This document shows, piece after piece, positions 1-18,021 of a DNA stretch of 31,532 nt. The number at the start of each line of letters is the position of its first letter. Position 1 is the first letter of the stretch. A program made the translations under genes and the position numbers. The notes under the pieces are model-generated. The model was not told where the DNA came from. It ran no database searches and saw nothing but the letters and a program-made list of their open reading frames with translations. Source of the DNA: a virus; the IMG/VR virus record IMGVR_UViG_3300009149_000165, positions 1-31,532 of that record. The stretch is one strand, 5' to 3'.

Positions 1-1386
1 CGCATTGTTAATCCAGAGGCATTTTCAGACGACCCATTGAGGATGTTACGTGCTGTTCAGTTCGCAAGTCGTTTTGGTTTTACAATTGAACCCAAAACTA
101 TGCAAATGATAATTGATAATGCTGATAAGATTAAAGAAATTGCACCTGAGAGAATATTAATTGAACTCGATAAAATTGTCACAAAAGGTAATCCTTTAAT
201 TGGTATTCAATTACTTTCATCAACAGGTTTATTTAAGCAGATATTTGGAAATGAAATTAAAGAATCTCAAATAGATCGTAGAGATTTCACCAGTGTTAGA
301 ACAATGGCTGAATTCTTATTTCTAATGATGAATGGTGTTGTACAGAATCCAGCAGAATTCTATCTAAATAGATTTGCTACCGAAGATGCTAAAAGAGATA
401 AAACATATAAAGAACTACAGGCATTGGATATTGCATTTAATTCAGATTTAATTGACCAGCAATTAACCCCAGTTAAAGCGAGATCAATAGCACATAATAT
501 GTTTAAAATTGCACCACAGACACTTGAAAGTCAAATTCTTCCTCAGATAATTAAGAATGCTGGTCAGGAATTATTGCAAGGTAAATACCCAAAAACAGTT
601 AATGAATTAGCTGTTAATGGTAATGATATTATGCAAAGAGGATTAAAGGGTAAAGCTGTTGGTGATATGCAAAAATCAATGTTAATTAGGATTTATGCTG
701 ATAAAATTAGGAATGATAAGGAAGAATTACTATCTTTAATTTCTCAAAAAAACGATGTTATGAAAGAAAGCACTTCTAATGCTTCAACATGGGATATTAA
801 TGGTGAAAGTCAACCAATTACTTTTTTTGTTGAAAAATATGATGAATGGAATAATCAAGGTAGTGGTGGGTATAGTGATGCTTCACGTGAATCGGTATTA
901 GAGTTTCTTCAGAACAATTACGAAGATTTCTCAAATGATGAAAAATTGAAGAGAGAATTATATTGGGCATTAACAGATAGAGATTTATTGGGTGAAGAAG
1001 CTAAAAGAGTGAGTTATAGTGCTGTTGTTCTTGACGAATCATCAAAAATAAAATTAATTAATTTATTTAAACCAATGATTCCTGAAGGTTGGGAAATTAT
1101 TGCACATCACATGACAATAAAAATGGGTGCGCTTGATAAAGATACCCAAGAAAAACAAGATATGGAAGATGGTAAATTAATTGAATTAAAAGTTATCGAT
1201 TATGCCATTGATAATTTAGTAATGGCTGTTGGTGTCGAAGGATACCCAACGACTAACACTAAACCACATATTACACTTGCTGTAAATCGTGCTGATGGTG
1301 GTAAACCATTCTTTTCAAATAAATTAACTGAGTGGAGACCATTAGGGTTTCCATTAACCTTAACTGGAAAAGTAACTGAAGTATGA
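1..1386 (+). CDS. CCA-adding enzyme-like nucleotidyltransferase C-terminal part fused to a 2H phosphoesterase domain (5' end outside window)
   Basis: The frame is open from base 1 and the first visible residues, with DPLRMLRAVQFASRFGF followed by ERILIELDKI, are typical of the region after the catalytic domain in tRNA CCA-adding enzymes and poly(A) polymerases. The catalytic head itself lies upstream, so a start at the internal ATG (37) would be an artefact. After a helical middle part, the last ~125 residues carry two H-x-T motifs, HMT at 1108-1116 and HIT at 1267-1275, 53 residues apart, the signature of 2H phosphoesterases (LigT/cyclic phosphodiesterase type). Known members act on 2',3'-cyclic phosphate or 2'-5' linked RNA ends. 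I infer a two-activity tRNA end-repair protein: one part removes damaged ends, the other rebuilds CCA. It overlaps the next gene by 4 bases (ATGA), so translation is probably coupled. The CCA call is fairly strong, the 2H call good, the joint role inferred. Confidence 0.75.
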   Translation, partial: RIVNPEAFSDDPLRMLRAVQFASRFGFTIEPKTMQMIIDNADKIKEIAPERILIELDKIVTKGNPLIGIQLLSSTGLFKQIFGNEIKESQIDRRDFTSVRTMAEFLFLMMNGVVQNPAEFYLNRFATEDAKRDKTYKELQALDIAFNSDLIDQQLTPVKARSIAHNMFKIAPQTLESQILPQIIKNAGQELLQGKYPKTVNELAVNGNDIMQRGLKGKAVGDMQKSMLIRIYADKIRNDKEELLSLISQKNDVMKESTSNASTWDINGESQPITFFVEKYDEWNNQGSGGYSDASRESVLEFLQNNYEDFSNDEKLKRELYWALTDRDLLGEEAKRVSYSAVVLDESSKIKLINLFKPMIPEGWEIIAHHMTIKMGALDKDTQEKQDMEDGKLIELKVIDYAIDNLVMAVGVEGYPTTNTKPHITLAVNRADGGKPFFSNKLTEWRPLGFPLTLTGKVTEV

Positions 1387-2030
1387 GAAAAGTAAGATTT
1401 CTTAAAGAAGAGCAACGTAATAAATTACTTGAAAATTCAGGTGTTAATTCTGTTGGTGGTGTTGATTTAATATCTGTTGATATTCAAGAAGCATATGAAA
1501 ATGCATTTACATTTGATATATATAGATTTACAGAATTTCTTAATAAGAATTATGATGCTATGAATTCTCTAACGTTCCTATTCAATGGACCTGATTTGGG
1601 TTTTCCTGATGAAAATGAATATAAATTTTGGCTTATTGAAAATGGTTTAGATGAGAATATTGCTTATTCAGCAAATTTTTATGATAAAGGATATGCTTTT
1701 TTTCGATACTGCATGGATGAAGGTATTAATGATGATGAACTTGTTGATTTCATCAAGTTTATGATACGTCATAATATTAATGATAGTAGTGAGATTGATG
1801 AAGAAATGTGGAGTGCATTTAAAGAAGAATATGGTTATGATGATATTCAAGATTTACTTGAACCTGCTGAAGATATGATTAATATACCAGATTTGATGGA
1901 ATATCTTCAAAGGTATCGTGGTAGAATAGTATTATGTGGTGGTGGAATTAATGAATGTTTTAAGGAAGTAGAAATCGCATTAATGGCACTTGATAAAAAT
2001 TATAATGTATTAACTAAATACACATATTAA
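1383..2030 (+). CDS. conserved phage protein of unknown function
   Basis: I do not recognise a named family in this 215-residue protein. It is acidic, largely helical in appearance, and has no signal peptide or membrane segment. The most striking stretch is near the C-terminus, where a strand-like IVLCGGG is followed by INECFKEVEIALMALD; this looks like a small Rossmann-like beta-glycine loop-helix unit and is probably the conserved core. The start ATG overlaps the stop of the preceding RNA-repair fusion by 4 bases, and the gene is followed 14 bases later by a PD-(D/E)XK-like gene. This places it within the same transcription unit and suggests, without proving, that it serves the same repair or conflict function. 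Confidence 0.7.
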   Translation: MRKVRFLKEEQRNKLLENSGVNSVGGVDLISVDIQEAYENAFTFDIYRFTEFLNKNYDAMNSLTFLFNGPDLGFPDENEYKFWLIENGLDENIAYSANFYDKGYAFFRYCMDEGINDDELVDFIKFMIRHNINDSSEIDEEMWSAFKEEYGYDDIQDLLEPAEDMINIPDLMEYLQRYRGRIVLCGGGINECFKEVEIALMALDKNYNVLTKYTY

Positions 2031-2044
2031 TAAAAAATTAAATT

Positions 2045-2548
2045 ATGTCAACGATTAATGAATTGCAAGAACAAATGTATGCTGATGGTTTAAAAGTTGA
2101 AGAATATTTTATTAAATTAGCTGAACGAGATGGTTATGATTGTATAAGACCAACAAGGTATCAAGATAGACATGAACATTGGGATGTTAAGATGACTAAA
2201 GATAAAAAATCTGCCCTTGTTGATGTTAAAGGATATAAGGAAAGTCATAAGTATGGATTAACTTGGATTGAATTTAAAAATGTTGAAGGTAAAAGAGGTT
2301 GGATTAATGGTAAAGCACATGCAATTGCTTTTGAAAGAGAAGATAGATTTGATTTAATTCATAGAGCGAAATTAAAAAAATTCGTTAAGAGTAAAATAGT
2401 TAACCCTAATGGTTATGTGTTTATTAAACCAGATGATTTAGTTGAGATAGCATACCATCGATACCGAAGAATGGGTCGAAGGGATATGGTAGTTATAGTA
2501 CCTTTTGCTGATATTGAACAATTTATAATGACAACAATATATAAGTAA
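2045..2548 (+). CDS. putative PD-(D/E)XK nuclease-like protein
   Basis: This 167-residue protein has the layout of a minimal PD-(D/E)XK nuclease fold: Glu20 in a first helix, Asp47 in a strand (HWDVKM), then a strand carrying VDVKG with Asp60 and Lys62, and a following IEFKN unit. The D...D-x-K spacing fits the restriction-endonuclease-like active site. The remaining C-terminal part (FVKSKIVNP, then an arginine-rich HRYRRMGRRD) could bind nucleic acid. No DNA-recognition domain is visible, so it may be a stand-alone nuclease or a structural relative acting on RNA or damaged ends. It lies 2 bases ahead of the HAD phosphatase gene and shares its operon. The family assignment is by motif only; I cannot name a substrate. 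Confidence 0.55.
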   Translation: MSTINELQEQMYADGLKVEEYFIKLAERDGYDCIRPTRYQDRHEHWDVKMTKDKKSALVDVKGYKESHKYGLTWIEFKNVEGKRGWINGKAHAIAFEREDRFDLIHRAKLKKFVKSKIVNPNGYVFIKPDDLVEIAYHRYRRMGRRDMVVIVPFADIEQFIMTTIYK

Positions 2549-2550
2549 TA

Positions 2551-3120
2551 ATGAAAAGATTAGTGATTTTTGACCTTGATGGTACGTTAATGAATACATT
2601 TAGTCCAGAAATAGGAAGACCAATGTGGGAAAAGCATTATAATAAACCTTTTCCACATATAGGTTGGTGGGGTCGTAAAGAAAGTTTAGATACCGAAGCA
2701 TTTGATATCAAACCATTTCCAAATGTATTATCTCAATTAGAGAGAGAGAAAAATATTCCTGATACAAGTGTTATAATCTTAACATCAAGGATGGAAAAAT
2801 TACGTTCTGAAGTTGAGAATGTTCTTAATTTAAATAATATTGTTGTTGATGATATTATATTAAAAAAAGGTCGTGAGAGTAAAGGTGATGTTATTTTAAA
2901 AATTAAAAAATATAACCCAGAACTTAAAGAAATAATTGTGTATGATGATTTTATGGAAAAAGATGCCAGAAAGATTGCAGAATATACAAATATTAATGAT
3001 CAGTTACCTGATGATGTAGAATATACATTATATTTTGTTGATAATGATAAAATTAGTTTATTAGAATCGAATGATGTTTTATTAAAGATGGTTCATGAAG
3101 AATTCGGAAAATTAAATTAA
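2551..3120 (+). CDS. HAD-superfamily phosphatase resembling the Swiss-Army-Knife RNA-repair HAD family
   Basis: The N-terminus FDLDGTLMNT is the canonical HAD motif I with nucleophile Asp8 and acid/base Asp10. Motif II is the TSR at residues 79-81, Lys111 is a suitable motif III lysine, and YDDFMEKDAR (Asp132, Asp133) is motif IV. Between motifs I and II there is a short segment with GWWG and a following aspartate (SLDT), a layout I associate with the HAD domain found in Swiss-Army-Knife RNA repair proteins (HAD_SAK). In polynucleotide kinase/phosphatase-like systems a HAD domain removes 3' or 2' phosphates from RNA ends. The neighbouring CCA-enzyme/2H fusion strengthens an RNA-repair reading. 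Length (189 aa) fits a single-domain phosphatase. HAD is certain; the RNA-repair subfamily is likely but unproven here. Confidence 0.8.
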   Translation: MKRLVIFDLDGTLMNTFSPEIGRPMWEKHYNKPFPHIGWWGRKESLDTEAFDIKPFPNVLSQLEREKNIPDTSVIILTSRMEKLRSEVENVLNLNNIVVDDIILKKGRESKGDVILKIKKYNPELKEIIVYDDFMEKDARKIAEYTNINDQLPDDVEYTLYFVDNDKISLLESNDVLLKMVHEEFGKLN

Positions 3121-3150: not shown

Positions 3151-3891
3151 GTGAGAAAATTAACAACAGATGATATTATAAGAAGAGCAATTGGTGTTCA
3201 TGGTAATGAATATGATTATTCATTAGTTAATTATATGAATTGTAGAACTAATATTAATATTATTTGTAAAAAACATGGTGTTTTCTCTCAGAATCCAAGA
3301 CACCATATAGAAAAAAAATCAAAATGTCCAAAATGTAGTAATGAAAAATTATCTAAACAATTTGCATTAACAACTAATGATTTTAAAAAAAGAGCATATA
3401 ATATTCATGGTGATAATTATGATTATTCAATGGTTAATTATATCAATAGTTTAACAAAAATAAAAATAATTTGTAATAAACATGGGATTTTTAGTCAAAG
3501 ACCTTTTAATCATTTAAATGGGGCAGGTTGCCCATCATGTAAAGAATCGTTAGGGGAAAGAAAGATTGCTGAATATTTAGAAAACAATAATATTAAATTT
3601 CAAAGACAAGTATCGTTTGATGGATTGATTGGGGATAAAAATCCACTATTTTATGATTTTTATCTTCCAAAGTATAAATTAATGATTGAATTTGATGGGA
3701 TTCAACATAGTAAACCAATTACTTTTTTTGGTGGTATGAAAAAGTTCATAAAACAAAAAAAATACGACAATAAAAAAATTCGTTTTGCCGTTGATGGTGG
3801 ATATAAATTATTAAAATTAACACATAATGTGTTATCATATATTGAAGAATCATTATTATGTGAACTAAAAAATAATGAAATATTATGTTAA
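3151..3891 (+). CDS. putative mobile (homing-type) endonuclease: two zinc-ribbon-like repeats plus Vsr/DUF559-like nuclease domain
   Basis: The first 130 residues contain two copies of a ~60-residue unit with the pattern A-x(2)-HG-x(2)-YDYS-x-VNY, then CxKHG-x-F-x-Q-x-P and a closing CPxC (Cys59/Cys62, Cys127/Cys130), as in small zinc-binding DNA-recognition repeats of phage endonucleases. The C-terminal part has a nuclease-like layout: GERKIAEYLE helix, then YDFYLP (Asp169) and IEFDGIQH (Glu180, Asp182, His186), matching very-short-patch-repair/DUF559-type PD-(D/E)XK enzymes. The start is GTG at 3151; no ATG fits the first repeat. It has its own promoter-like motif, and its last bases overlap the next gene start by 7. 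Such stand-alone nucleases behave as selfish elements in phages, which I infer here; the DNA target is unknown. Confidence 0.7.
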   Translation: MRKLTTDDIIRRAIGVHGNEYDYSLVNYMNCRTNINIICKKHGVFSQNPRHHIEKKSKCPKCSNEKLSKQFALTTNDFKKRAYNIHGDNYDYSMVNYINSLTKIKIICNKHGIFSQRPFNHLNGAGCPSCKESLGERKIAEYLENNNIKFQRQVSFDGLIGDKNPLFYDFYLPKYKLMIEFDGIQHSKPITFFGGMKKFIKQKKYDNKKIRFAVDGGYKLLKLTHNVLSYIEESLLCELKNNEILC

Positions 3892-4715
3892 AAAACGGAA
3901 GACCATATCATTTACCCCAAATAAATCAACAATATACAACAGTATTACAGAAATTGGATGAGGAAAATGTTGATTTTGAGATGGTTAAATTAGAACCAAG
4001 TGAAAATGATGGTATCGAACCATCTCAAAAAATTGTTTATTCGAATGAAATTAGTGGTGTAAATCTTGATGATAATAATCCAATTTGGATTGCAGGGGGG
4101 GGGGGATTAAATATTTGTGATGGACATCATCGATATTTTAAAGCAATGTTTGAAAATAAACCAATACTTGCTGTTAAATTAAATATTGATTTTATGGATG
4201 CTTGTCGAATCTTAAATAAAATACAAGATATTTACGAATATGAAGAATCACAAGGATTGGAAGAAGTTCAAGTACAGGATGCTATAAATTTTTATGGTGA
4301 AGATGAGAATCAGTTTTTAAATTCATTAGAAGAAGATAATCTTAATTCTGAAACTGAAGAAAAACCAAATAAAAACAAAAAAACTGTTATAGGTTATAGA
4401 AAAGAACCAATAAATGATAATTCAGTTGTTGGTAATTTCTTTACTGTTGAACCAGTTAGTGGTTGGAATAAATATGAAATTGACTTTGATAATTTATTGG
4501 ATACATCATCTATGGGTGTAACATATAAAGATGGTCAAGAACCTGTTGATATATTAGCTAAAAGTTGGTTTCCAAACGTAAATTTCGAAAAAATAAGTAA
4601 ACAATATGATGTTCCTTCAATTAACATAAAAAATAAAGCTGTTGCTGAAAAAGCAATGAAAATGGGTTATGATGGAATAATGTATGATAAAAAAATAATT
4701 CAAGGACTAAAATAA
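3885..4715 (+). CDS. ParB-like domain protein with possible ADP-ribosyltransferase-like C-terminus
   Basis: Residues ~30-105 resemble the ParB/sulfiredoxin-like fold: a helical start, a strand WIAGGGG, then ICDGHHRYFKA (DGHHR at 79-83, the ParB-family nucleotide-binding box) and a strand ILAVKLNI. A low-complexity acidic, Asn/Glu-rich linker (about 125-165) separates a C-terminal part that begins VVGNFFTVEP and ends KAMKMGYDGIMYD, a pattern seen in ADP-ribosyltransferase-like domains of phage polyvalent proteins. The glycine run is encoded by an 11-base G tract. An in-frame stop sits 6 bases upstream of the ATG, so the start is near 3885. The gene follows the nuclease gene with a 7-base overlap. 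The ParB-like call is solid by motif; the C-terminal assignment is tentative and I cannot identify catalytic residues there. Confidence 0.6.
   Translation: MLKNGRPYHLPQINQQYTTVLQKLDEENVDFEMVKLEPSENDGIEPSQKIVYSNEISGVNLDDNNPIWIAGGGGLNICDGHHRYFKAMFENKPILAVKLNIDFMDACRILNKIQDIYEYEESQGLEEVQVQDAINFYGEDENQFLNSLEEDNLNSETEEKPNKNKKTVIGYRKEPINDNSVVGNFFTVEPVSGWNKYEIDFDNLLDTSSMGVTYKDGQEPVDILAKSWFPNVNFEKISKQYDVPSINIKNKAVAEKAMKMGYDGIMYDKKIIQGLK
4095..4105 (+). repeat. G11 homopolymer tract inside the ParB-like gene
   Basis: Eleven consecutive G bases lie in a strongly AT-rich gene. Eleven keeps the frame (GCA GGG GGG GGG GGA). Ten would give GAT TAA immediately and twelve would reach TGA after four more codons; both cut the protein before the DGHHR box. 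Confidence 0.9.
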
Positions 4716-5250: not shown

Positions 5251-6633
5251 ATGGACGGTAAAATCAGAATATTATTCTACAACCTTGACGGAGCAGGTGT
5301 TAATTATTTTAGAACATTAACACCAGCAATGGAACTCGAAAGAAATCATTCGGATGATTTCTTTATTGAAATAAATCCACAAATAGACTTCAATGACCCT
5401 AAATATGTTGACTATTTAAAAACATTTCATATAATACACTATCATCGACAGTTTTTGGGTGATACTCAACAAATGTTAAATTTAGCTGCTGAATTAAAGA
5501 AATCAGGAACAATTTTAATTGTTGATATTGATGATTATTGGAAATTGCACAAAGATCACCCCTTCTATACTATGGGTAAAGATAAACAAATGCACATCCC
5601 AATTTTAGATAATCTAAAACTCGCAGATTATGTTACAACGACAACAGATATTTTTGCTGATGAAATTCGTAAAGTAACTGCTAAAGATAATGTGGAGGTG
5701 TTCTACAATAGTATTGACCCTAAATGGATGAAGCAATTTCAAAACAATTGGAAACCAGACCCTGATGGTTTAGTTAGGATTTCGTATATGGCTGGGTCGT
5801 CACATATGGGTGATGTTCAACAGCTTCAAGGTGTTATGAATGTTTTATCAAATGACACTGATCTGAAAGGTAAGTTTAAAGTAATTATTGCTGGTTGGGA
5901 TACTGAAGGTAATACAACTGACATCACATTTAATCAAGATTTTAGAACTGAACTTGAGAAAAAAGGTTTATGGACTCATGATGTTGTGAAAGCAATAAAT
6001 AAATCTGGTGGTGATGTTGATCAAATACCAAGAATTTCACAAGAAATTAAAGACAAATACAGGGATAAAGTATTCGACAGTAAAAAACGTGATATTAAAT
6101 CAGAAGAAAGTGTTTATCTTATATATGAAAAGATTTTAACTGATAATCATAGAATGATTGAAAATGCTGATTATCTTCAATGGCTTATGAATTTTGAAAG
6201 AAATGTTAAGTATGATGATGAGGGTAATTTTGGTAGACGTTGGACACAAAAAGCAAACACATATGCACAGGTATTGGATGAAAGTGATATAGTGATTGCT
6301 CCACTTGCAGATAATGAGTTTAATAGAATGAAATCAAATCTAAAACAGGTTGAATGTTGGACAAGAAAACTTCCTATTGTATGTAGTGATATACCACCAT
6401 ATAATGTTCATGGTAAACACATGGAAAATTGTGTATTAATCCCATCAGTGAAAAATTCACATAAATATTGGAAAAAACATTTAAAAAAATTAATATTAGA
6501 TGCTGATTTACGTAAACGTTTAGGTGAACAATTATATGAAGATTTTAAAGTCGAATATAATCTTGCTGATGTTACGAAAAAACGTGCAGATTTTTATAAA
6601 GCTGTTGTTGGTGAAACATTAAAGGTTGATTAA
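5251..6633 (+). CDS. glycosyltransferase, GT-B fold (group 1 / GT4-like)
   Basis: The 460-residue protein has the two-lobe plan of GT-B glycosyltransferases. The N-lobe starts with a strand and glycine turn (ILFYNLDGAGVNYFR) and contains IVDIDDYW and a TTTTDIF unit followed by VEVFYNSID, typical of the region just before the inter-lobe linker. The C-lobe begins with ISYMAGSSHMGD, has KVIIAGWD, and near the end VIAPLADNEFN with ECWTRKLPIVCSDIPPY, matching the sugar-nucleotide-binding part. A ~60-residue charged insertion lies in the C-lobe. There is no signal peptide or membrane segment. It is the first gene of a block preceded by the late-type motif and is followed by virion-type genes, so it may glycosylate a virion protein or the host surface; donor and acceptor are unknown. 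Confidence 0.8.
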   Translation: MDGKIRILFYNLDGAGVNYFRTLTPAMELERNHSDDFFIEINPQIDFNDPKYVDYLKTFHIIHYHRQFLGDTQQMLNLAAELKKSGTILIVDIDDYWKLHKDHPFYTMGKDKQMHIPILDNLKLADYVTTTTDIFADEIRKVTAKDNVEVFYNSIDPKWMKQFQNNWKPDPDGLVRISYMAGSSHMGDVQQLQGVMNVLSNDTDLKGKFKVIIAGWDTEGNTTDITFNQDFRTELEKKGLWTHDVVKAINKSGGDVDQIPRISQEIKDKYRDKVFDSKKRDIKSEESVYLIYEKILTDNHRMIENADYLQWLMNFERNVKYDDEGNFGRRWTQKANTYAQVLDESDIVIAPLADNEFNRMKSNLKQVECWTRKLPIVCSDIPPYNVHGKHMENCVLIPSVKNSHKYWKKHLKKLILDADLRKRLGEQLYEDFKVEYNLADVTKKRADFYKAVVGETLKVD

Positions 6634-6636
6634 ATA

Positions 6637-7542
6637 ATGAAGAAATTTTTCAAAAATATAATTCTTTGGATTTATTTAAAATTACATAGTGTAATTTTTA
6701 AGATAAGTGTTGCATTATTTAATACTGAGGAAGAGATTCTTAAAGCTGACCCAAATAGTTTAGATGAAAGAAATAATCATACGCAAAGAATGCGTAGTCG
6801 TAATCAATTATTGGAAAAATTTTATGCTGGTGAAACCGATCAAAAATATGTTAAGGATTATTATGAGATTTTGAAAAAAGCAGATAATTTCATAAAAAAA
6901 GCAACACCACATCAAATGGCTATTGCTGCGGATAAATATGGGACGAGTTATGGAATGAAAGACCGTTATGGTAGAAGATATGAACATTATGGTTTCTTTG
7001 ATGAAAAACATAAACATTCTGGAAAAACTCTTGGTGAGGTAATTGCAAATGAATTTGAGGAAAGACGTACAAAGGATGATGATTTAGAGATTTTATATAT
7101 CTTTAATAATCACCCAATTGAAGTTGGATTAGCTAAAGTTATGGATGTTGTTAAGAAGAAGGAAGATGCTTCCGATGAGTATGAAGTGCTTGATATGCAA
7201 AATAAATCAAAACAATTTAAATTCCCAATAACTGGTGTACGTGATAATGATAAAGCTATAAATAAAATAGAGGAATTATGTGAATTTTTACATGTAAAAA
7301 AAATTGGTTTTGAGCATAGACAATTAGAATTTTTTATACCTTTACATTTTAAAACAAATGAACTTACGGATGATTCTGATATTTTTAATGAAATTATTAA
7401 TATTAAAGAAATTTTTATTCAGGATGATTATGGACAATTAATTGGGTTTGGTATTAATGAATATGTTAAAAGAATAAAATATAATAATACCCATGAAGTA
7501 TTAAAATTCACTGGAGTTGAAATGCAAATGATGGGACAATAA
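6637..7542 (+). CDS. phage protein of unknown function, possible structural or neck component
   Basis: I do not recognise this 301-residue protein. The N-terminal ~30 residues (KKFFKNIILWIYLKLHSVIFKISVALF) are strongly hydrophobic with scattered lysines and histidine and could be one membrane-associated or amphipathic helix. The rest is charged and apparently cytoplasmic or virion-exposed: a helical region with many lysines (residues 40-90), a mixed central segment with YGRRYEHYGFFDEKHKH, and a C-terminal alpha/beta part ending in KFTGVEMQMMGQ. It starts 3 bases after the glycosyltransferase stop and precedes two small genes in the same unit. Position before the baseplate genes suggests a virion or assembly role, by inference only. 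Confidence 0.65.
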   Translation: MKKFFKNIILWIYLKLHSVIFKISVALFNTEEEILKADPNSLDERNNHTQRMRSRNQLLEKFYAGETDQKYVKDYYEILKKADNFIKKATPHQMAIAADKYGTSYGMKDRYGRRYEHYGFFDEKHKHSGKTLGEVIANEFEERRTKDDDLEILYIFNNHPIEVGLAKVMDVVKKKEDASDEYEVLDMQNKSKQFKFPITGVRDNDKAINKIEELCEFLHVKKIGFEHRQLEFFIPLHFKTNELTDDSDIFNEIINIKEIFIQDDYGQLIGFGINEYVKRIKYNNTHEVLKFTGVEMQMMGQ

Positions 7543-7553
7543 AACGAAAAATT

Positions 7554-8006
7554 ATGAGCGAATTTTTAGAAAAATTAAAAAAAGCAGCAGATAATGGAGA
7601 ATTTAATTCTGAAGCTGCAAAAAAGATAACTGAGGTTACTGAACTAGCAGAAACCAAATTTATTGAAAGTGATGATGGTGTTTCATATGTTGACACAACA
7701 AATCTCGATAAATTAAAGGATGAGGTCAATAAGAATATTAAACCAGTAACTGAAGAAAAAGCACTTGAACTCAATACTGAGTATGAGGAAAAGATGAAGC
7801 AATTGAAAAAAATTGATTCTGCTAATAAACAATTAGCAACATTAATTGATATCGAAGATATGGTAAAAGCAAGTATTGAAGATATGATTGGTTTCACAGA
7901 TGAACTTGAAGGTAAATTTGAAAAAGAATTTAATGATGAAGACCCAATCTATGCTGATCTTTCCCAGAAAATTGAACAAATTAAATCGAAATATATTATT
8001 AATTAA
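7554..8006 (+). CDS. coiled-coil phage protein of unknown function
   Basis: The 150-residue protein is highly charged and helical, with heptad-like hydrophobic spacing over most of its length (for example ELNTEYEEKMKQLKKIDSAN and IEDMIGFTDELEGKFEKEFN). It has no cysteine, no membrane segment and no catalytic motif that I can see. It lies 11 bases after the preceding gene and 12 bases before the next, in the block that starts with the glycosyltransferase. A role as a chaperone, scaffold or small structural protein is plausible, but nothing in the sequence decides between these. Confidence 0.65.
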   Translation: MSEFLEKLKKAADNGEFNSEAAKKITEVTELAETKFIESDDGVSYVDTTNLDKLKDEVNKNIKPVTEEKALELNTEYEEKMKQLKKIDSANKQLATLIDIEDMVKASIEDMIGFTDELEGKFEKEFNDEDPIYADLSQKIEQIKSKYIIN

Positions 8007-8018
8007 AAACAATTATTT

Positions 8019-8471
8019 ATGTCAAAAATTCAAAAAGCGTCAGAAGATTTAGTAAATCTATTTGATGAGATTAGAGATCAAACAACAATCCCTCATTGGA
8101 TTATGTTTGAATTATTCAATAATAGTAAACAAAAGGAACTTTATAAAATTAGTAAAACAAATGATGTTACTGAAATTCTTACTGATGGTGTAAATTTTAC
8201 CGTAGTGTTTAATGAAGAAATATTTGATGGGTTGCCATTAGATATGCAGAAGATGGCAATTGTTGAATGTCTTGCAGGCGTTAGTGTAAGTGATAGTGAT
8301 GCAATTTCATTGAAAAAAACAAATGTTAATACACATACAGGTGTACTTCAAAAATATGGTCATGAACCAGTAATCATATTACATGAATCAATTAAAAGTC
8401 TTTTTGATCAGAAAAAACAAAAAGATGATGAAGAGAAAGCACAAACGAAAGCTAAACGACAAAAAAACTAA
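8019..8471 (+). CDS. conserved phage protein of unknown function
   Basis: This 150-residue protein has an N-terminal helical part with TIPHWIMFELFNNSKQ, a strand pair around NFTVVFNEEIFDGLP, a central MQKMAIVECLAGVSV, and a basic, lysine-rich tail after residue 130. The arrangement of a strand, an acidic turn and a helix is reminiscent of small phage proteins sometimes annotated as putative metallopeptidases, but the HExxH box is absent, so I do not assign peptidase activity. It is the last gene of its block; a strong terminator at 8496 follows 25 bases after the stop. Its function is open. Confidence 0.65.
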   Translation: MSKIQKASEDLVNLFDEIRDQTTIPHWIMFELFNNSKQKELYKISKTNDVTEILTDGVNFTVVFNEEIFDGLPLDMQKMAIVECLAGVSVSDSDAISLKKTNVNTHTGVLQKYGHEPVIILHESIKSLFDQKKQKDDEEKAQTKAKRQKN

Positions 8472-8495
8472 AATAATAGTAATTTGTAAACAATT

Positions 8496-8529
8496 AAAAA
8501 TCCCGATAAATTAATTATCGGGATTTTTT
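8496..8529 (+). terminator. strong intrinsic terminator
   Basis: A perfect 14-bp stem (AAAAATCCCGATAA with TTATCGGGATTTTT) closes on a 5-base loop and runs into T residues. The A-rich left arm would also allow function on the opposite strand. Confidence 0.9.
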
Positions 8530-8537
8530 CTTTATAA

Positions 8538-8551
8538 GTATTTATAATAAA
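8538..8551 (+). promoter_or_regulatory. GTATTTATAATAAA motif, probable phage late promoter
   Basis: An exact motif lies 9 bases after the terminator and begins 23 bases before the ATG of the gp25-like gene. Terminator followed at once by the motif is also seen at 12433-12484. Confidence 0.65.
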
Positions 8552-8560
8552 TCAAATATT

Positions 8561-8959
8561 ATGAATACTTATAATATCACTTTTCCTTTTGAGGATAATT
8601 ATGAAGAAAATAGTTTTTTACTAATGAATCAAACTAGTAAAACAGCTTATAGTAGTAATTTATTATTGTTGTTATTAACTGTAAAGGGTGAAAGATATAA
8701 TGACCCCGATTATGGGACTGATTTGATTAAATATATATTTGAACCTAATGATGATTTAACTAGTCAAGAGGTTGAGAATGAAATAAAAAACACAGTGTCA
8801 CTATATATTCCAGAAATTAAAATTAATTCAATATTGTTTAATTGGTTAACTGATGATAATGGGAATGAAATTAGCGAAAATCAATTAAGTGTTGATGTTA
8901 AATTTACTTATAACGATGATACACTTAGCGAAGAGGGTAGTCTTAATCTAGTTTTTTAA
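8561..8959 (+). CDS. baseplate wedge subunit, T4 gp25 / GPW-gp25 family
   Basis: The 132-residue protein matches the family's usual length. It shows the family core: a region leading to a helix (SKTAYSSNLLLLLLT), then the conserved box with an arginine-like start and tight turn, GERYNDPDYGTDLIKYIFEP, followed by the helix SQEVENEIKNTVSLYIP and the closing strands INSILFNW and LSVDVKFTYND. In T4 and contractile injection systems, gp25 joins the sheath initiator region to the wedge and is essential for baseplate assembly. The gene directly precedes the gp6-like wedge gene, the usual order in contractile-tail phages. It has no lytic active site, despite the lysozyme name sometimes given to this family. 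Confidence 0.87.
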   Translation: MNTYNITFPFEDNYEENSFLLMNQTSKTAYSSNLLLLLLTVKGERYNDPDYGTDLIKYIFEPNDDLTSQEVENEIKNTVSLYIPEIKINSILFNWLTDDNGNEISENQLSVDVKFTYNDDTLSEEGSLNLVF

Positions 8960-8989
8960 ATAAAAATAAAATATAAATAATACATTATA

Positions 8990-10834
8990 ATGGCAACAGA
9001 AACAACGAATATTATTCAATATGGAAGTAGAACTTTTGGGGAAATTAGAACAGATTTAATTTCATATATTAGACAAGCATATCCAGAAGTTCTTAGTGAT
9101 TTTATGGATTCTAGTGTTGGTGCAATGCTTATTGATTTAAATGCTGGAGTTACTAATAATCTTAGTATTAATACTGATAGGGCATTTCAAGAAACTCAAT
9201 TAGAGTATGCACAACAAAGAAGTTCAATATTAAATATTGCAAAAAATATGGGTTTCAACATCCCAGCAAAAAGACCAAGTGTTACTGTTGTTGATTTTAG
9301 TGTAACAATTCCAGTATTAGGTAATGCTCCAGATAGTAATTATTATCCAGTATTAAATGCTGGTGCACAAATAATTGGTGGGGGTAAAATATTTGAGACA
9401 CAAGAAAATATTGATTGGAATTCACCATTAAGTAATTTGGGTGACCCTAATCGAAGTATTATACCTGTTTTAGACCCTAATGGTATACCAGTCAGTTATA
9501 CTGTCACTAAAAGAGAAGTTGTTATAAATGGGAGTACAAGTATTTTTAAAAGGGTTATTAATACTAATGATGTTGTACCATTTTTTCAAATAACATTACC
9601 AGATGCAGATATTATTGAAATTGAAAGTGTAATTCTCATGGAAGGTACTTCAATAACAACACCAGAGTATAGTGATTTTTATGACATTACTAAACAATAT
9701 TTTGAGGTTGATTATTTAGCTCAACAGCGAGTTTTTATCGAAGACCCAAATAGTTCATCTGGAAGTACTAATACTAATAATTTGAAAGTAGGTAAGTGGT
9801 TAGATATTACAAAAAAATTCATAAAAGAATTTACACCAAATGGTTTTTGTAAATTAACTTTTGGTTCAGGTGATGCTAATATCGATGCATTTAGAGATGG
9901 TTTTTTAAAAGAGGGTGTTAATGATCGATATTTTCTTGAAAATTTTCTAAATGGTACTGCCCTTGGTGAAAAACTGAAAGCTAATTATACGTTATTTGTT
10001 AAATATAGAACTGGTGGTGGTATAGCATCTAACATTGGTTCAAACGTATTAACACAACTTGGGTCATATACTTTAAACGTTAATGGTTCACGTCAGGAAT
10101 ATAATCAAAACGTTTATAGGAGTTTAAGAACAACAAATCCAATTCCAGCTATTGGTGGAAATGACGGTTTAAATACTGAACAAATAAGACAATTAACTAA
10201 ATATAATTTTTCTAGTCAAAATAGAGATGTAATACTTACTGATTATTTAATGCAAACGTATAAGATGCCCGGTAAGTTCGGTTCACCATTTCGTACAAAT
10301 GTTTTTAAATTAAATAATAAGATTCTAATTTCAATCCTTGGAATTGGTGCTGATGGTAAATTATCAAATACAAGTAATTCTTTATTAAAAACAAACATTA
10401 GTGAATATTTATCACAACATAGAATGGTTAATGATTATGTTGAAATTAAAGATAGTAAAATTTATAATTTAGGGTTTGAGATTGATGCATATATCGAAAA
10501 CATTACCGATAATCAAATTGCAAATAATATAATTTCAGTAGTAAAGACTTATTTTAATATTAATAATAGTGATATGAATCAAGATGTTTTTCTTGGTAGA
10601 CTTCAGAAAAAAATACTTGATGTTAATGGTGTTGTAAATATAATTAGTATTAAAGTGTTTAATAAAGTTGGTGACCAATATTCAAACAATACTATTGGTC
10701 AACAAATTTCAAACACTACTACTGGTGAAATTAAAATTGAAAATAATACAATTTATTCAACAAAAGATTCAATGTTTGAAATTAAATATCCTGAAAAAGA
10801 TATTAAAGTGTTATTAAGGAAAAGTGTGGAATAA
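8990..10834 (+). CDS. baseplate wedge subunit, T4 gp6 / baseplate J-like
   Basis: This 614-residue protein starts with the typical J/gp6 entry region: YGSRTFGEIRTDLISYIRQ, then SDFMDSSVGAMLIDLNAGVTNNLS and a helix with REE-like content (AFQETQLEYAQQRSSILNIA), and KNMGFNIPAKRPS before the beta-rich middle. The C-terminal third carries the family's later core, with TEQIRQLTKYNFSSQNR, VILTDYLMQT, and after it YKMPGKFGSPFRT. In T4, gp6 forms the continuous ring of the baseplate by dimerisation. Its place after gp25 supports the call. A TATAAATA octamer at 8972-8979, 11 bases before the ATG, could be an extra promoter, but the leader is so A/T-rich that I give it little weight. Confidence 0.85.
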   Translation: MATETTNIIQYGSRTFGEIRTDLISYIRQAYPEVLSDFMDSSVGAMLIDLNAGVTNNLSINTDRAFQETQLEYAQQRSSILNIAKNMGFNIPAKRPSVTVVDFSVTIPVLGNAPDSNYYPVLNAGAQIIGGGKIFETQENIDWNSPLSNLGDPNRSIIPVLDPNGIPVSYTVTKREVVINGSTSIFKRVINTNDVVPFFQITLPDADIIEIESVILMEGTSITTPEYSDFYDITKQYFEVDYLAQQRVFIEDPNSSSGSTNTNNLKVGKWLDITKKFIKEFTPNGFCKLTFGSGDANIDAFRDGFLKEGVNDRYFLENFLNGTALGEKLKANYTLFVKYRTGGGIASNIGSNVLTQLGSYTLNVNGSRQEYNQNVYRSLRTTNPIPAIGGNDGLNTEQIRQLTKYNFSSQNRDVILTDYLMQTYKMPGKFGSPFRTNVFKLNNKILISILGIGADGKLSNTSNSLLKTNISEYLSQHRMVNDYVEIKDSKIYNLGFEIDAYIENITDNQIANNIISVVKTYFNINNSDMNQDVFLGRLQKKILDVNGVVNIISIKVFNKVGDQYSNNTIGQQISNTTTGEIKIENNTIYSTKDSMFEIKYPEKDIKVLLRKSVE

Positions 10835-12495: not shown

Positions 12496-15400
12496 GTGGG
12501 AAAAGTAAAAGTAGTAAATTCACAACTCAATGCAAATTTAAATGGGAGTTATTTTAATGACACACCATCTAATACAATATTTTCGTTTGGAAAGTTTTTT
12601 GTCACATCAAACTTCGATAATAAGGTAACTATTGATTATACAAACACTTTAAGTTCATTTGTTCAACCAATTTCTTTAGAATCTCTTAATGTTTCAACAA
12701 CACAGTCTGAAATAATTGAAGAATACTCAACAAACGCAACATTAAACTTAGATAAATCAAATTTAAATACTTTTGTTAGGTATGGTTCGGCTTATGAATT
12801 TTTAAGAGTAGCTATTCAGGAAATAATCCTTGCATATCCGGGAAGTCTATTTCTTAACTCACAAACCATATTAAGTAGTAATTACACATATAGTGGATTT
12901 AGTTATAATGAAATCAAAAACGTTTCAACAATTTATGTACCTACAGCATATATGGAGAATAAATTTGGTTTAATATATAACGATGGTAATGAAACTTTGC
13001 CAGATGATGTCGAATTGAAGAATTTAAATGTTTCATATGATAAATATGTAATCTGGTCATCGTTAGACCCAGAAACATTATACCCTATAATTGGTTATAC
13101 TGGTAATTCAACAAACACTAGTAATAATTTTATAAACACACACATAAAATTAGAAATTCAAGGAAACCCATTTACTTTTATGGGGACTGGTAGTACTGGT
13201 ATTCTCGATTATCATATTAGACCAAATAATGTTGTTTTCGAAGAATTTAGGGCGTTATTAAGTCCATATGAAAGGAACATTGTTTCTTTTAGAGATGGTA
13301 CTAATGGTTTTTCATTCACAATGAAAGACCCAAAACTACTCGATAGTGGTAAAATTATATATTCTAACACACAAATACTTTGGGTAACTAGTGATGGTTA
13401 TAATATAGAAATTGATACACCAAATTATCAAAAATTTTTGGAAATAATGTTGACTATTGGTGGGAAATATGATAGTGTGAAAACCGATTTAATTGCAAGA
13501 TTTTTAACACCATCCTCACTTAAAACATATGATTTTACTAGTGAAGGTAAAATACTTAAACTTCTAAGAATTTATGGTGAAGAATTTGATAAGATTAGGG
13601 AATTTATTGATTCTCTTGTACATATTAATAAAATAACATATGATAAAATTGATAATGTTCCTGATCAACTAATAAAAAATATGGCAAATACTTTTGGTTG
13701 GGATTATTTTTCATTAGTGAATGAAAGTGAATTAGTTGACGGATTCTTAACCATTGATGATGTTGAAAGGAATTTAAATGACAACACATTACCAGCAGAA
13801 ATTGATATTGAACTTTGGAGAAGAATTATTAACAACACTAGTTATTTTTGGAAATCAAAAGGTACTCGCCAAGCGATAAAATCAATGTTTTTATTAATTG
13901 GAATACCAGAACCATTCATCAATATAACAGAATATGTTTATACTGTTGAGGGTAAAATCGACCCAAATACAGTTCCATTAACTCAGGCAGATTTTCCATC
14001 CAACTCATTACCATATGATACTGATGGTTATCCAATTGCACCGTTAGAGACAAGCGATTTCTATTTTCAAATTAGTGGTGATTCTGATGGTGGTCAAGCA
14101 TATCTTGATGCGTTTCGTTTGGCTGGATTTAATTTGTCTGCAACAGTTGACAATAAAAAATCGTGGGTTCAATCTGGAGCAACAACAAGAATACATGATA
14201 CAACACCACAATATTATCAAGAAGACAGTAGGTTAGTTATTAACACTAAAGAAGTTGATGTTGCACTTGATACCGCACGTGGAATTGAATATGATGTTTA
14301 TGAATATATTCAAAAAGATTTTGCAGCAAATTCAAGTGGGTACACATTACCATATTCATATGTAAATATATCTTTATCATATAGTGGTGAAGAGAACACA
14401 TTTACATTACCTTATGATGTGAATGGACTTCAAGGGGATTTCGAAGTTAGATATAATGGTATTTTACTTAATGCACCTAAGAGTGGGTCAACTGAGGAAT
14501 TGACACGTGCAGATTATACTGTTTCAGGAAATAGTTTCACATTAGTTAGTGGGGTTGCAAGAAATTTGGGAACTAGAAGAGATGTGATTCAAGCAACATT
14601 TGTTAATTCTGGTACGACAAGTGCTATTAGTGGAATAACTGTTGAATATATAGTTACAAGACTTCAAGCATCGTATGGGAACATATATCTTGATCTACCA
14701 AGTTACCCACGTGGTGATCTACAAGTAACTATTAATGGTATTGCACTTACTAAAGGTACTCCACAATTTACAGCAGACTATATCTTAGACCCAGCAAATT
14801 CAAGTGGTGGGACTAATCGAATAATTATTCAGAATCCTGAAGTTATAACTTTTCTTAATTCAAATCCAGAAGTACAGGTTTCATATATGACTGTAACTGG
14901 TAGTGATGATATTAATTTAAGAAGTGAAGTTATTAGAGTTGATAGTTTTAATACAAATAAAATCTATTTCAATGCAAGTGCAAATAAATATGTATATAAA
15001 CTTAATTACAAAGCAACTAAAGCTAGTGACGTTAAGTTTTTAATTAACGGAATTGCGTTAGAACCAATTTTGGATTATAACATTAATGTGATGAATCAGT
15101 TTGAAATATTTTTACCAAGAGGTATAAAGTATGGTGATGTGATCACAGTATATTATCTTGTAGCAAATAGTAGTGCATTTACTCCTGTTGTTAATGATAG
15201 TTTTGGTCTTGGTGATATTAGTGAATTGTCGTTTCTTGAATTTATTGAATTGATTCAGAGAAAAATGATTAATGCCAGAAACAGACAAACAATAAGTGAT
15301 TTTAAAGGTGGGTGGTATCCAGCTTTATTAAGAATTTATGAAACATATTTAGAAAGGGCAACTCTTTCAGATGATAATCCATTACAATCAAATGGTTATA

Positions 15401-18021
15401 CATTTCAGAATCTATATCCGTTTTTAAGTAAATATAATGCATTCTTCCAAAGATTTGTTGATCAATTATTATCTTCAACAATAATTATTAAAAGAGGTGG
15501 GTTATTAATTAGAAATAGTGTTTTCACAAAACAAAAACATATGTATAAAAGAGGTGTTAGTTTTAATCAACTTAATCAATATTTTGGCGACGATGGTAGT
15601 TTGTTTCAAACAGTACAAACAATTGAACCACCACCAGAACCACCACCAGAAGACATTAATTTATATGTTGAAACAACTGAGGGTGTGCTTGGTAGTTTAA
15701 CAACAGGTGGGGAAAATATTTATAATTTTGCTCAAGTATGTGAATATGGTGTTGATTATAAAATAAATAATATTGGTTCTGAGTGGATAAGGGTGTCAGA
15801 AACAGGGACACTTTCAGTTGATAATTATAGTATGACGTTAAATGATATTGATGATGATACGACATATGATTATCGTGCATTTGTAATATCACCTTGGACA
15901 GCTACAACAGCTAATAATGTTAGAATAATAACGACACCACCGCCACCACCACCGCCACCATCAGTGGAAACTAGAGTTGCTCATCATGTGGAAACATATT
16001 CAACAGGTGGTATATATTATAATAGAATAGTAGATACTGGGTTAATTAATGTTGTCCAATACGGTAATATTGATTATTATGCAGTTCAATATAGAAAAGG
16101 TACTACTGGTGGTTGGTCAACAGCACCATCATCACCATTAAACGGACCGCTTTCGGTGGATTATTCTCAGAATATAACAATATCTGGTTTAGATAATGAC
16201 AGTGTTTATCAATATCGTGCATATATGTTAATGGCAGGAAGTGGTGATGAATATTATGGGAATATAATTGAAGTTACAACATTAGCTGAACCAATAATTG
16301 CTTCTTCACTTGATACTGGAACTGCTGGTTCAATAAGTGTTGATAGTTTTATCGTGAATAATAGTATCATTACAGATGGTGGAAACCCAATAACGATGAA
16401 TGAATGGGGAATATTATATACTGATTCTTCATTTTATGGACAAACTGCTTGTTTAAAATATGAAAATACTAATGTTTGTAAAGTTTCATCATGTAGTAAT
16501 CAAGATGTTGGACAAGAATGGCATAAATCATTAAGTGGTTTAGAATCAGATACAACAATATATTTTAGGTCATTCGCTAAAAATATTTGTGAGTGCGTTG
16601 GTTATGGTAGTGTGAAAAATACAACTACTTTACCAATAATAGCAGCAACACTTGCAACAGGAACTGCTGCTGCTATAACAATTAATAGTTTTAATATAAA
16701 TGATAGTAGAATAGATAGTGCTGCTACACCAGTATGTATTAATGAATATGGTATATTATATACTCAATGTTCAACATATGGTACTGATAAGAATTTAGTA
16801 TATGGTAGTGCTAGTTCATATGTTTGTTGTGTTTCAACATTAGGTAATCAAGATGTTGGACAAGAATGGCATAAATCATTAAGTGGTTTACTTCCAGAGT
16901 GTACAACATATTATAGAGCATTTGCTAAAAATTGTTGTGAATGTACTGGCTATGGTTCAATTTGTAGAACTGATACGTTACCACTAGTTGCTCCAACATT
17001 TTGTACAGGTACTGTTGGTTCAATAACTGTTGATAGTTTTGTTGTTAATGAAAGTGAATTGACTGTTTATGGTGACCCACCAACAATTAATGAATATGGA
17101 ATATTATATACTGACTGTGCAACATATGGTACTACAGCAAATTTGAAAAAGGGCAAAGTTTGTGTTAGTTGCATTTCTACTTTTGATAATGTAAGTGTTG
17201 GGGAATTATTTACTTGTACTTTATCTAGTCTTACATCAGACACTACATACTATTTTAGATCATTCGGTGAGAATCTTTGTAATTGTTTTGGTTATGGTGC
17301 TGTGTGTAATGCAACTACTTTAGCAATAGTTGCACCCACAGTGGATACTGGTACTGCTGGTTCAATAACAGTTGATAGTTTTGCTGTTAATGATAGTCAG
17401 ATGAGTATTTATGGTGTTCCTGAAGCAACTAATGAATATGGAATATTATATACCGACTGTTCATTTTATGGTCAACCAGAATATTTAGTGTATGATAGTC
17501 CAAATCCAGAAGTTTGTATGGTTTCATCATGTGCTCTTATTGATCAGGAAGAACTATTTACTAAAACATTATCTGGTCTTCCATCAAACACATCTATATA
17601 TCATAGAGCATTTGTTAAAAATACTTGTGATTGTGTTGGGTATGGTACTGTGAAAACAACAGCTACATTAGAAATAGTTGCACCTACAATGTGTACTGGT
17701 ACTGCTGGTACAATAACAACCAATAGTTTTAATGTGAATGATAGTGATATGACTGCTTATGGTGTTCCAACAACTATTAATGAATATGGAATATTATATA
17801 CTGAATGTTCAACCTATGGTGTTGATAAGAATTTAAAATATGGAAGTGCTAGTTCATATGTTTGTTGTGTTTCAACATGTGGTGTTATGAGTGTTGGTGA
17901 ACAATTTACTAAAACATTATCTGGTTTATCATCATCAACAACAGTATATTTTAGGTCATTCGCTAAAAATATTTGTGAGTGTGTTGGGTATGGTGTGGTG
18001 TGTAATGCAAGTACAACATAA
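12496..18021 (+). CDS. giant tail/fibre protein: tail-protein-I-like region, beta modules, FN3-like repeats
   Basis: At 1841 residues this is the largest protein here. Residues 1-300 are beta-rich. Residues ~310-480 are helical and resemble the tail protein I (P2 gpI-like) fold: FLEIMLTIGGKYDS, then WRRIINNTSYFWKSKGTRQA and IKSMFLLIGIP. Three beta modules follow, each with an NGI-x-L box (about 640-890). A helical stretch (YETYLERA, FQRFVDQLL) leads to a proline linker EPPPEPPPED, two divergent FN3-like domains split by a second linker of eight prolines, and five ~115-residue cysteine-rich repeats to the end. The repeat ends (TTYYFRSF-x-KN...GYG) recall FN3-like domains of Bacteroidota surface proteins. 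I infer a baseplate-anchored fibre whose C-terminal repeats project outward and bind the host. GTG start chosen because it follows the promoter motif and no ATG precedes the conserved N-terminal part. Confidence 0.75.
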   Translation: MGKVKVVNSQLNANLNGSYFNDTPSNTIFSFGKFFVTSNFDNKVTIDYTNTLSSFVQPISLESLNVSTTQSEIIEEYSTNATLNLDKSNLNTFVRYGSAYEFLRVAIQEIILAYPGSLFLNSQTILSSNYTYSGFSYNEIKNVSTIYVPTAYMENKFGLIYNDGNETLPDDVELKNLNVSYDKYVIWSSLDPETLYPIIGYTGNSTNTSNNFINTHIKLEIQGNPFTFMGTGSTGILDYHIRPNNVVFEEFRALLSPYERNIVSFRDGTNGFSFTMKDPKLLDSGKIIYSNTQILWVTSDGYNIEIDTPNYQKFLEIMLTIGGKYDSVKTDLIARFLTPSSLKTYDFTSEGKILKLLRIYGEEFDKIREFIDSLVHINKITYDKIDNVPDQLIKNMANTFGWDYFSLVNESELVDGFLTIDDVERNLNDNTLPAEIDIELWRRIINNTSYFWKSKGTRQAIKSMFLLIGIPEPFINITEYVYTVEGKIDPNTVPLTQADFPSNSLPYDTDGYPIAPLETSDFYFQISGDSDGGQAYLDAFRLAGFNLSATVDNKKSWVQSGATTRIHDTTPQYYQEDSRLVINTKEVDVALDTARGIEYDVYEYIQKDFAANSSGYTLPYSYVNISLSYSGEENTFTLPYDVNGLQGDFEVRYNGILLNAPKSGSTEELTRADYTVSGNSFTLVSGVARNLGTRRDVIQATFVNSGTTSAISGITVEYIVTRLQASYGNIYLDLPSYPRGDLQVTINGIALTKGTPQFTADYILDPANSSGGTNRIIIQNPEVITFLNSNPEVQVSYMTVTGSDDINLRSEVIRVDSFNTNKIYFNASANKYVYKLNYKATKASDVKFLINGIALEPILDYNINVMNQFEIFLPRGIKYGDVITVYYLVANSSAFTPVVNDSFGLGDISELSFLEFIELIQRKMINARNRQTISDFKGGWYPALLRIYETYLERATLSDDNPLQSNGYTFQNLYPFLSKYNAFFQRFVDQLLSSTIIIKRGGLLIRNSVFTKQKHMYKRGVSFNQLNQYFGDDGSLFQTVQTIEPPPEPPPEDINLYVETTEGVLGSLTTGGENIYNFAQVCEYGVDYKINNIGSEWIRVSETGTLSVDNYSMTLNDIDDDTTYDYRAFVISPWTATTANNVRIITTPPPPPPPPSVETRVAHHVETYSTGGIYYNRIVDTGLINVVQYGNIDYYAVQYRKGTTGGWSTAPSSPLNGPLSVDYSQNITISGLDNDSVYQYRAYMLMAGSGDEYYGNIIEVTTLAEPIIASSLDTGTAGSISVDSFIVNNSIITDGGNPITMNEWGILYTDSSFYGQTACLKYENTNVCKVSSCSNQDVGQEWHKSLSGLESDTTIYFRSFAKNICECVGYGSVKNTTTLPIIAATLATGTAAAITINSFNINDSRIDSAATPVCINEYGILYTQCSTYGTDKNLVYGSASSYVCCVSTLGNQDVGQEWHKSLSGLLPECTTYYRAFAKNCCECTGYGSICRTDTLPLVAPTFCTGTVGSITVDSFVVNESELTVYGDPPTINEYGILYTDCATYGTTANLKKGKVCVSCISTFDNVSVGELFTCTLSSLTSDTTYYFRSFGENLCNCFGYGAVCNATTLAIVAPTVDTGTAGSITVDSFAVNDSQMSIYGVPEATNEYGILYTDCSFYGQPEYLVYDSPNPEVCMVSSCALIDQEELFTKTLSGLPSNTSIYHRAFVKNTCDCVGYGTVKTTATLEIVAPTMCTGTAGTITTNSFNVNDSDMTAYGVPTTINEYGILYTECSTYGVDKNLKYGSASSYVCCVSTCGVMSVGEQFTKTLSGLSSSTTVYFRSFAKNICECVGYGVVCNASTT
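16300..18018 (+). repeat. five tandem cysteine-rich FN3-like repeats
   Basis: Repeat units begin at 16300, 16642, 16990, 17332 and 17680 (342, 348, 342, 348 and 339 bases). Each starts near TGTAGSI-x-V-x-SF and contains NE(Y/W)GILYT, a cysteine-rich middle, an SGL turn and a GYG end. Exact stretches are shared between non-adjacent units: 47 bases at 16496 and 16844, 34 bases at 16807 and 17845, 37 bases at 16559 and 17945. The five units hold 35 cysteines; the 1268 residues before them hold one. Confidence 0.9.

Follow-up and report, generated by a model that had tools for sequence, protein, structure and literature searches.

What function is served by the four genes that fill positions 1-3120 of a virus fragment, IMG/VR record IMGVR_UViG_3300009149_000165 (positions 1 to 31,532; this whole stretch of 31,532 nucleotides is called the window below)? 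The fragment has 28% G+C and carries T4-like baseplate and tail genes 3' of these four, which an initial annotation had described as a gapless cassette for RNA repair: a CCA-adding/2H fusion, an unknown protein, a PD-(D/E)XK-like protein and a HAD phosphatase, together perhaps an undescribed tRNA repair pathway. Four tandem plus-strand open reading frames (ORFs), with spacings of -4, 14 and 2 bases, are indeed present. Compared with related contigs, however, the set resolves into a three-enzyme core (CCA, 2H and HAD) and two accessory genes, because the second gene (ORF2) is found in only a subset of relatives and the slot of the PD-(D/E)XK gene is variable. We propose, with a probability of about one half (0.52), that the three enzymes constitute one ligase-independent module for healing and rebuilding tRNA 3' ends, and that its CCA and 2H parts are probably packaged in the virion. 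The core consists of the following features.

1-1386, plus strand: ORF1, open at its 5' end, the 461 C-terminal residues of a giant fusion.
1-735, plus strand: C-terminal (RNA-binding/body) part of a CCA-adding tRNA nucleotidyltransferase (PF12627, PolyA_pol_RNAbd, 4.7e-17; phrog_2244 1.6e-23; NCBIfam CCA profile 3e-25).
784-978, plus strand: mini-domain of ~65 residues (WDINGE...ITFFVEKYDEWN...) between CCA and 2H, with other modules in its place in relatives.
1003-1383, plus strand: 2H cyclic phosphodiesterase (CPDase) domain of the tRNA-ligase CPDase type, with two HxT motifs.
2551-3120, plus strand: HAD phosphatase of the Swiss-Army-Knife RNA-repair family (HAD_SAK_1, PF10307).

ORF1 joins the CCA part (residues 1-245) to the 2H domain (residues 335-461), as initially annotated, except that the catalytic head of the CCA enzyme lies beyond the window edge. 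We located this head in contig L018 (ORF 6416-10141), where it matches PolyA_pol at 1.8e-22 and carries the motifs GGAVRD, DLD and RRDFTINA. L018 overlaps the first 142 bases of the window with 137 identities and 5 mismatches; because of these mismatches, and though the encoded 47 residues are identical, we regard it as a very close relative whose identity with the genome of the window is unproven. What lies upstream there is one ORF, over 1,240 residues long, in which N-terminal kinase-like domains precede the CCA catalytic head. Giant ORFs of 1,200-2,200 amino acids upstream of baseplate genes likewise combine kinase-like domains (assigned from motifs and without a Pfam match), CCA and 2H in one polypeptide, and the fusion is complete in L001. 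The best NCBIfam profiles for the CCA part of ORF1 are CCA enzymes, and its putative activity is the addition of C, C and A rather than poly(A).

In the 2H domain the motifs H36-M-T and H89-I-T are nearly invariant. Seventeen of the 19 members of its family match tRNA_lig_CPD, the profile of the fungal tRNA-ligase CPDase (best 6.4e-7), and none matches the other 2H profiles (Acb1, LigT, 2_5_RNA_ligase). The HAD assignment held as well: all 17 homologues match HAD_SAK_1 (best 6.1e-8), not nucleotidases, 16 of them match PHROG 415 ('polynucleotide kinase'), and the catalytic residues D8, D10, T78, K111 and D133 are conserved together with the insert G38-W39-W40, the GWW layout on which the first assignment had been based. 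For its predicted structure, with a predicted local distance difference test (pLDDT) score of 90.9, fold matches were the HAD of Legionella Lem4 (E 7.6e-5) and, at E 1.4e-4, the Pnkp1/Rnl/Hen1 RNA-repair complex of bacteria. When solved structures were searched by sequence with the profiles of HAD, 2H and ORF2, only spurious matches came up (e.g. interferon gamma, MYB).

The main evidence that the trio may act as a unit comes from the contexts of the 2H domain. A profile scan for window-type 2H domains retrieved at least 95 viral contigs and one contig of a Flavobacteriales metagenome-assembled genome, and we surveyed the neighbours within 8 kb of 59 distinct 2H domains. Twenty were fused to a polynucleotide kinase (PNK) domain; 18 of these lay in reach of a T4-type RNA ligase 1 (Rnl1), none near HAD, and five had a CCA gene nearby. 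Nine were fused to CCA, eight of them adjoining HAD, and 13 were separate ORFs adjoining HAD (12 with CCA). CCA-2H-HAD synteny, fused or adjacent, was found for 20 of the 59 domains, with no RNA ligase or PNK in the neighbourhood. In three loci (L178, L179 and L181) the 2H domain is fused to a HAD_SAK domain directly 3' of a CCA gene; HAD-2H fusions occur in unrelated phages (HAD_SAK_1 E = 1e-34 and 1.5e-36), and the window HAD profile aligns with such fusion proteins (1e-34 on HAD_SAK_1) at an hhalign E of 1.8e-12. No ligase or kinase was seen at any of the 25 CCA/HAD-associated loci, and across the survey HAD and kinase/ligase neighbourhoods never mix. Since the 2H domain is kinase-fused in 20 distinct loci, 18 of them beside Rnl1, we assign it to RNA repair, to which this phage 2H family is tied through its kinase, HAD and CCA fusions. 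Because CCA, 2H and HAD come together in two unrelated arrangements, apart from the kinase/ligase context, the trio appears to form a functional unit that would not need a local ligase.

The three enzymes are found together throughout the clade of the window, in line with the co-occurrence initially expected of the cassette, and gene order is kept in related contigs (CCA - 2H - HAD - ParB-like - ... - glycosyltransferase - baseplate). CCA and 2H form a single ORF in the window, L001-L003, L005, L012, L094 and L098, and two ORFs in the others, at times split by homing endonucleases. The nearest relative carrying all four genes is G002. Neither the window 2H nor ORF2 had a match among 50,697 GenBank phages; the Bacteroides phages DAC19, DAC20 and DAC22 hold a lone distant 2H only. 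The module belongs to uncultured T4-like giant phages, which probably infect Bacteroidota.

We infer the substrates and the order of reactions as follows. Metal-independent RNases would leave a 2',3'-cyclic phosphate on shortened tRNAs; the 2H domain would open this phosphate on the truncated tRNA, HAD would then remove the remaining phosphate, restoring a 3'-OH, and the CCA enzyme would re-add CCA, no ligase being needed. After a cutter that leaves a 3'-OH, the CCA enzyme alone should suffice. The same enzyme would have a second, routine task in completing the tRNAs of the phage itself, which we ascribe to it because most phage tRNA genes lack an encoded CCA: two 325-kb relatives have 39 and 33 tRNA genes, of which only 7 and 4 encode CCA at the 3' end. 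As a separate observation, ARAGORN calls a tRNA with a CUA anticodon (amber suppressor type) at 33976-34047 of the 327-kb relative G007. As for delivery, CCA and the fused 2H would be synthesized within a giant polyvalent-type polyprotein, released from it as separate modules while the head matures, and then injected along with the phage DNA; HAD, without a tag, would be made after infection.

This predicted packaging and injection of CCA and 2H follows from the junctions of the polyprotein, which carry motifs resembling prohead-protease sites. Two of them lie in the window (a slash marks the predicted cut).

760-768, plus strand: predicted prohead-protease site MKE/S, ~11 residues after the CCA core.
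988-996, plus strand: predicted protease site LGE/E just before the 2H domain (LLNE, LLKE, LLTE, QLNE and LTE in other fusions).

In T4, gp21 cleaves behind a glutamate residue, and Alt is processed at ITE and LTE (PMC5694885, PMC9026906). In 16 of 19 homologues, where ~7% would be expected, a comparable [LIM]xE motif falls within a 4-residue span behind the CCA core, though the modules that follow differ (naive binomial p 4e-16, an optimistic value because the homologues are related). Non-homologous modules also precede a second motif, located in 10 of 12 cases at 26-27 residues N-terminal of the GG motif of CCA (VPMNE/AEIM in L018; NNLNE/AQLM, ENMNE/AQIM and KMIYE/GQIM elsewhere), and a third stands ahead of 2H (LLGE/E, LLNE/D, LLKE/D). 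Edges of homologous blocks have such a motif at most 15 residues away in 56% of cases, versus 27% at random. A gp21-like protease is encoded in each of the relatives G007 and G003, whose gp23-like capsid proteins retain the glutamate of the T4 cleavage site as MINE/S.

Candidate targeting tags were also observed. The N-terminus of L018, MTFVEFKENFLPE, resembles a capsid targeting sequence, and clear N-terminal tags occur in L016, L020, L017, L162 and XacN1 ORF170; in the isolated phage XacN1 a kinase-like domain forms a separate ORF starting MKQVRLSQFLSE/AP. L162 carries a tagged CCA-2H fusion beside prohead protease and gp23 genes. In distant relatives (L016, L020, L017) the 2H and CCA genes stand within gene rows sharing an N-terminal tag, and 12 of the 25 ORFs of L016 begin with a MIKLK tag pattern that was never seen in interior stretches. 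To judge from their sequences, these MIKLK-tagged rows look like sets of effectors that the tag would direct into the capsid for injection. Specific tag families are enriched at N-termini (LFE in G007, MIKLK in L016). That giant phages carry a ready-made CCA enzyme and cyclic phosphodiesterase in the capsid, cut from a polyprotein at prohead-protease sites and injected with the DNA, is a tentative proposal from these patterns, to which we give somewhat less than even odds.

Two further observations concern tagged genes. Consecutive genes at 7001-16942 of L016 and 8454-12558 of L020 all start with MIKLK.LL.E and encode ADP-ribosyltransferase (ART), Nudix-lysozyme, GNAT-like, Acb1-like 2H, CCA and KptA-like domains. 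At 96570-98586 of G007 (L042), and in about eight other genes, the tag K.RLFEVM.K..P.FKP.LNE occurs on unrelated genes, including a polynucleotide kinase and an ART just 3' of the capsid gene.

Several points weigh against the proposed healing-and-rebuilding module and its packaging. A RuvC-type tail cutter (Cas12a3) is expected to leave a 3'-OH, needing the CCA enzyme only. CdiA-CT EC869, whose cut in the acceptor stem leaves a cyclic phosphate, takes away more than the CCA (PMC9071432). In the window itself, 2H and HAD fall slightly short of the curated Pfam cut-offs (2H against tRNA_lig_CPD, 1.6e-4 for the domain, 21.7 bits vs 23; HAD alone against HAD_SAK_1, 5e-4, 20.3 bits vs 25.6). On the packaging side, shared ancestry flatters the site statistics; a genome-wide count of [LIM]NE near N-termini gave no clear enrichment, and we set this motif aside as a packaging tag; and neither HAD nor 2H, where it is a separate ORF, carries a tag. 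Finally, the genomes of relatives encode RNA ligases, Thg1 and kinases at other sites.

These remote enzymes lend weight to an alternative that we judge unlikely, though the strongest of those considered: that the trio is the healing half of classical T4/Trl1-type break repair, with 2H and HAD healing anticodon-loop breaks, a remote kinase and RNA ligase sealing them, and CCA a bystander for tRNA upkeep. Profile searches found no classical RNA ligase or 5' kinase in the window, as initially noted, nor in the 28-kb contig of L018 (G013); PF09511 rang in no control in the window search, and does ring in G007 and G012. The initial annotation had placed the missing steps just upstream or in ORF2. 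Upstream of the fusion in L018 lie DNA polymerase, Nudix, WYL-like and kinase-like genes instead, and a ligase, Thg1 and a kinase are encoded far off in relatives: G007 (327 kb) has Rnl1 (1.9e-19) and a kinase without the HAD half (9.5e-18), the latter shortly 3' of its gp23-like capsid gene, and G002 and G006 have an Rnl2-type ligase beside Thg1. In other phages, moreover, this 2H forms a fusion with a kinase, and Rnl1 is encoded next to it. Yet the separation of HAD from kinase/ligase neighbourhoods in the 59 contexts, and the recurrence of CCA with HAD-2H in a ligase-free neighbourhood, argue for a distinct unit; given the remote sealing enzymes, we suggest that the trio may have an additional role in break repair. 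An RtcB route was rejected, RtcB being absent from 15 related records. Independently of this question, a kinase-like gene is paired with an HD-domain phosphohydrolase gene in G005 (L035; 944-1875) and G003 (230280-231239), possibly another end-healing pair.

Could the association be fortuitous? A CCA enzyme that only matures phage tRNAs, with 2H and HAD as unrelated operon neighbours, would fit the many phage tRNA genes without CCA and the presence of CCA enzymes in several giant-phage groups (PMC7824862). We hold this to be improbable given the CCA-2H and HAD-2H fusions and the recurrence of CCA, HAD and 2H in two unrelated arrangements. More improbable still is a 2H domain that acts against immune signalling by breaking down signal nucleotides of the host (Acb1-like or 2'-5' oligoadenylate); such a role has been suggested for the 2H of other polyvalent proteins. 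RNase or signal-degrading roles have been put forward for 2H domains (PMC5512222), and a separate 2H in L016 does match Acb1; the profile that detects the window 2H family, however, is that of the tRNA-ligase CPDase (there was no match to Acb1, LigT or 2_5_RNA_ligase), and window-type 2H domains are fused to kinase, CCA or HAD_SAK.

How does the proposed tRNA-end module compare with known systems? The fungal and plant tRNA ligase Trl1 is a ligase-kinase-CPDase protein. Trl1 and T4 Pnkp/Rnl1 resemble our case in the CPDase-type 2H, which in many phages is kinase-fused beside Rnl1, whereas the window-clade 2H is fused to or beside CCA and HAD, with no kinase or ligase in the module. The RNA-repair repertoire of jumbo phages already includes a CCA enzyme, 2H, Swiss-Army-Knife HAD, PNK and Rnl (Iyer et al. 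2021, PMC7824862). Of the initial interpretation, the enzyme identities and a role in RNA repair are supported; a missing ligase or kinase just upstream or in ORF2 is not. That repertoire shares the enzyme classes, a stand-alone HAD gene and T4-type giant phages with the window; in the part of the account considered here, the enzymes are treated genome-wide, and neither fusions of the CCA-2H or HAD-2H type nor a CCA+2H+HAD unit free of a ligase are mentioned. The polyvalent proteins of Iyer et al. (2017, PMC5512222) are likewise giant and multidomain, with kinase-like domains, near virion genes and in some cases predicted to be packaged. They carry their own peptidase, whereas window-clade junctions resemble prohead-protease sites, and the window clade differs further in that its protein includes a complete CCA enzyme and a 2H of the tRNA-ligase type; the 2H domains of the earlier study were never seen there together with RNA ligases. 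In T4, the counterparts are Alt and the internal head proteins (PMC9026906, PMC5694885), which our case resembles in short N-terminal tags, an [IL]xE motif, and genomes that also encode a gp21-like protease and a gp23-like capsid protein; the window clade differs by RNA-repair cargo that is strung in one polyprotein and whose packaging is predicted. Neither the fusions (CCA-2H, HAD-2H) nor the trio free of a ligase nor the site-punctuated polyprotein was thus found in the parts of the literature on the jumbo-phage repertoire and polyvalent proteins considered here; the Swiss-Army-Knife literature may already describe some of them.

Among the main targets of bacterial immunity is tRNA, and a dedicated CCA and end-healing module would be a direct candidate counter-measure to tail cleavage. 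Tail cleavage by Cas12a3 was recently reported to be a defence not readily bypassed by phage tRNAs, and phage resistance to it would need yet unknown means according to its authors (PMC12851939). If CCA and 2H are carried in the capsid, tRNA tails could be rebuilt from the first minutes of infection, one answer to Cas12a3-type defences, and RNA repair would join the list of injected functions.

The accessory genes and the genes that follow the module are these.

1383-2030, plus strand: ORF2, accessory, a probable isochorismatase/nicotinamidase-like cysteine hydrolase (invariant D33, K102 and C192; weak fold match).
2045-2548, plus strand: PD-(D/E)XK-like nuclease in the variable slot between 2H and HAD (HWDV...VDVK motif).
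3151-3891, plus strand: free-standing homing endonuclease between HAD and the next gene (phrog_559 7.5e-61), lacking in many relatives.
3885-4715, plus strand: ParB/Srx-like gene (DGHHRY), conserved in all syntenic loci; motif seen by eye, no Pfam match.

ORF2, placed before or after 2H in the relatives that have it, had been presented as an unknown protein with a Rossmann-like loop that might carry the missing repair step. Its triad D33, K102 and C192 is invariant in 13 sequences, in the layout of isochorismatase/nicotinamidase-type hydrolases, and its structural model (pLDDT 83.9) gave 8rkz, 6kua, 2b34 and 3eef as the best sensible fold matches, albeit weak ones (E ~0.1, probability 0.69-0.89, template modelling score ~0.4). 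ORF2 is therefore probably an isochorismatase-like hydrolase, resembling that superfamily in triad positions and overall fold and differing in having no sequence-profile match; as a ligase or kinase it was rejected, there being no such profile match and both triad and fold pointing to the hydrolases. The viral structure library gave no informative match to it. ORF2 may have to do with NAD chemistry: its homologue in L088 lies near a kinase-2H fusion and genes that by eye resemble NADAR and Nudix.

The slot between 2H and HAD holds mutually divergent nuclease-like genes in L001, L002, L004, L005, L010, L012 and L082. D47 and K62 of HWDV...VDVK align across these slot-mates, but searches of Pfam, PHROG and NCBIfam gave no convincing match; the PD-(D/E)XK-like call is tentative. 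The gene lies outside the conserved core. Several homing endonuclease types (treble-clef/DUF559, GIY-YIG and LAGLIDADG, by eye) are repeatedly inserted around CCA-2H-HAD, splitting ORFs (window 3151-3891, L004, L008, L010, L012, L013). The ParB/Srx-like gene (window 3885-4715) has a conserved end segment, K.M(G)YDGI.Y....QGLK, in all relatives.

In the window as a whole, the T4 late promoter TATAAATA occurs 13 times vs 10.7 expected, and this lead was set aside. Elsewhere in the window, a tail protein of 1,841 residues (12496-18021) contains ~4.4 tandem copies of a cysteine-rich repeat of 348 bases (116 residues) at 16472-18005, in its C-terminal part. A gene for an extracytoplasmic function (ECF)-like sigma factor (24902-25480; Sigma70_r2 5.8e-12) adjoins a gene that by eye is small heat-shock-like (25527-25934), on the opposite strand.

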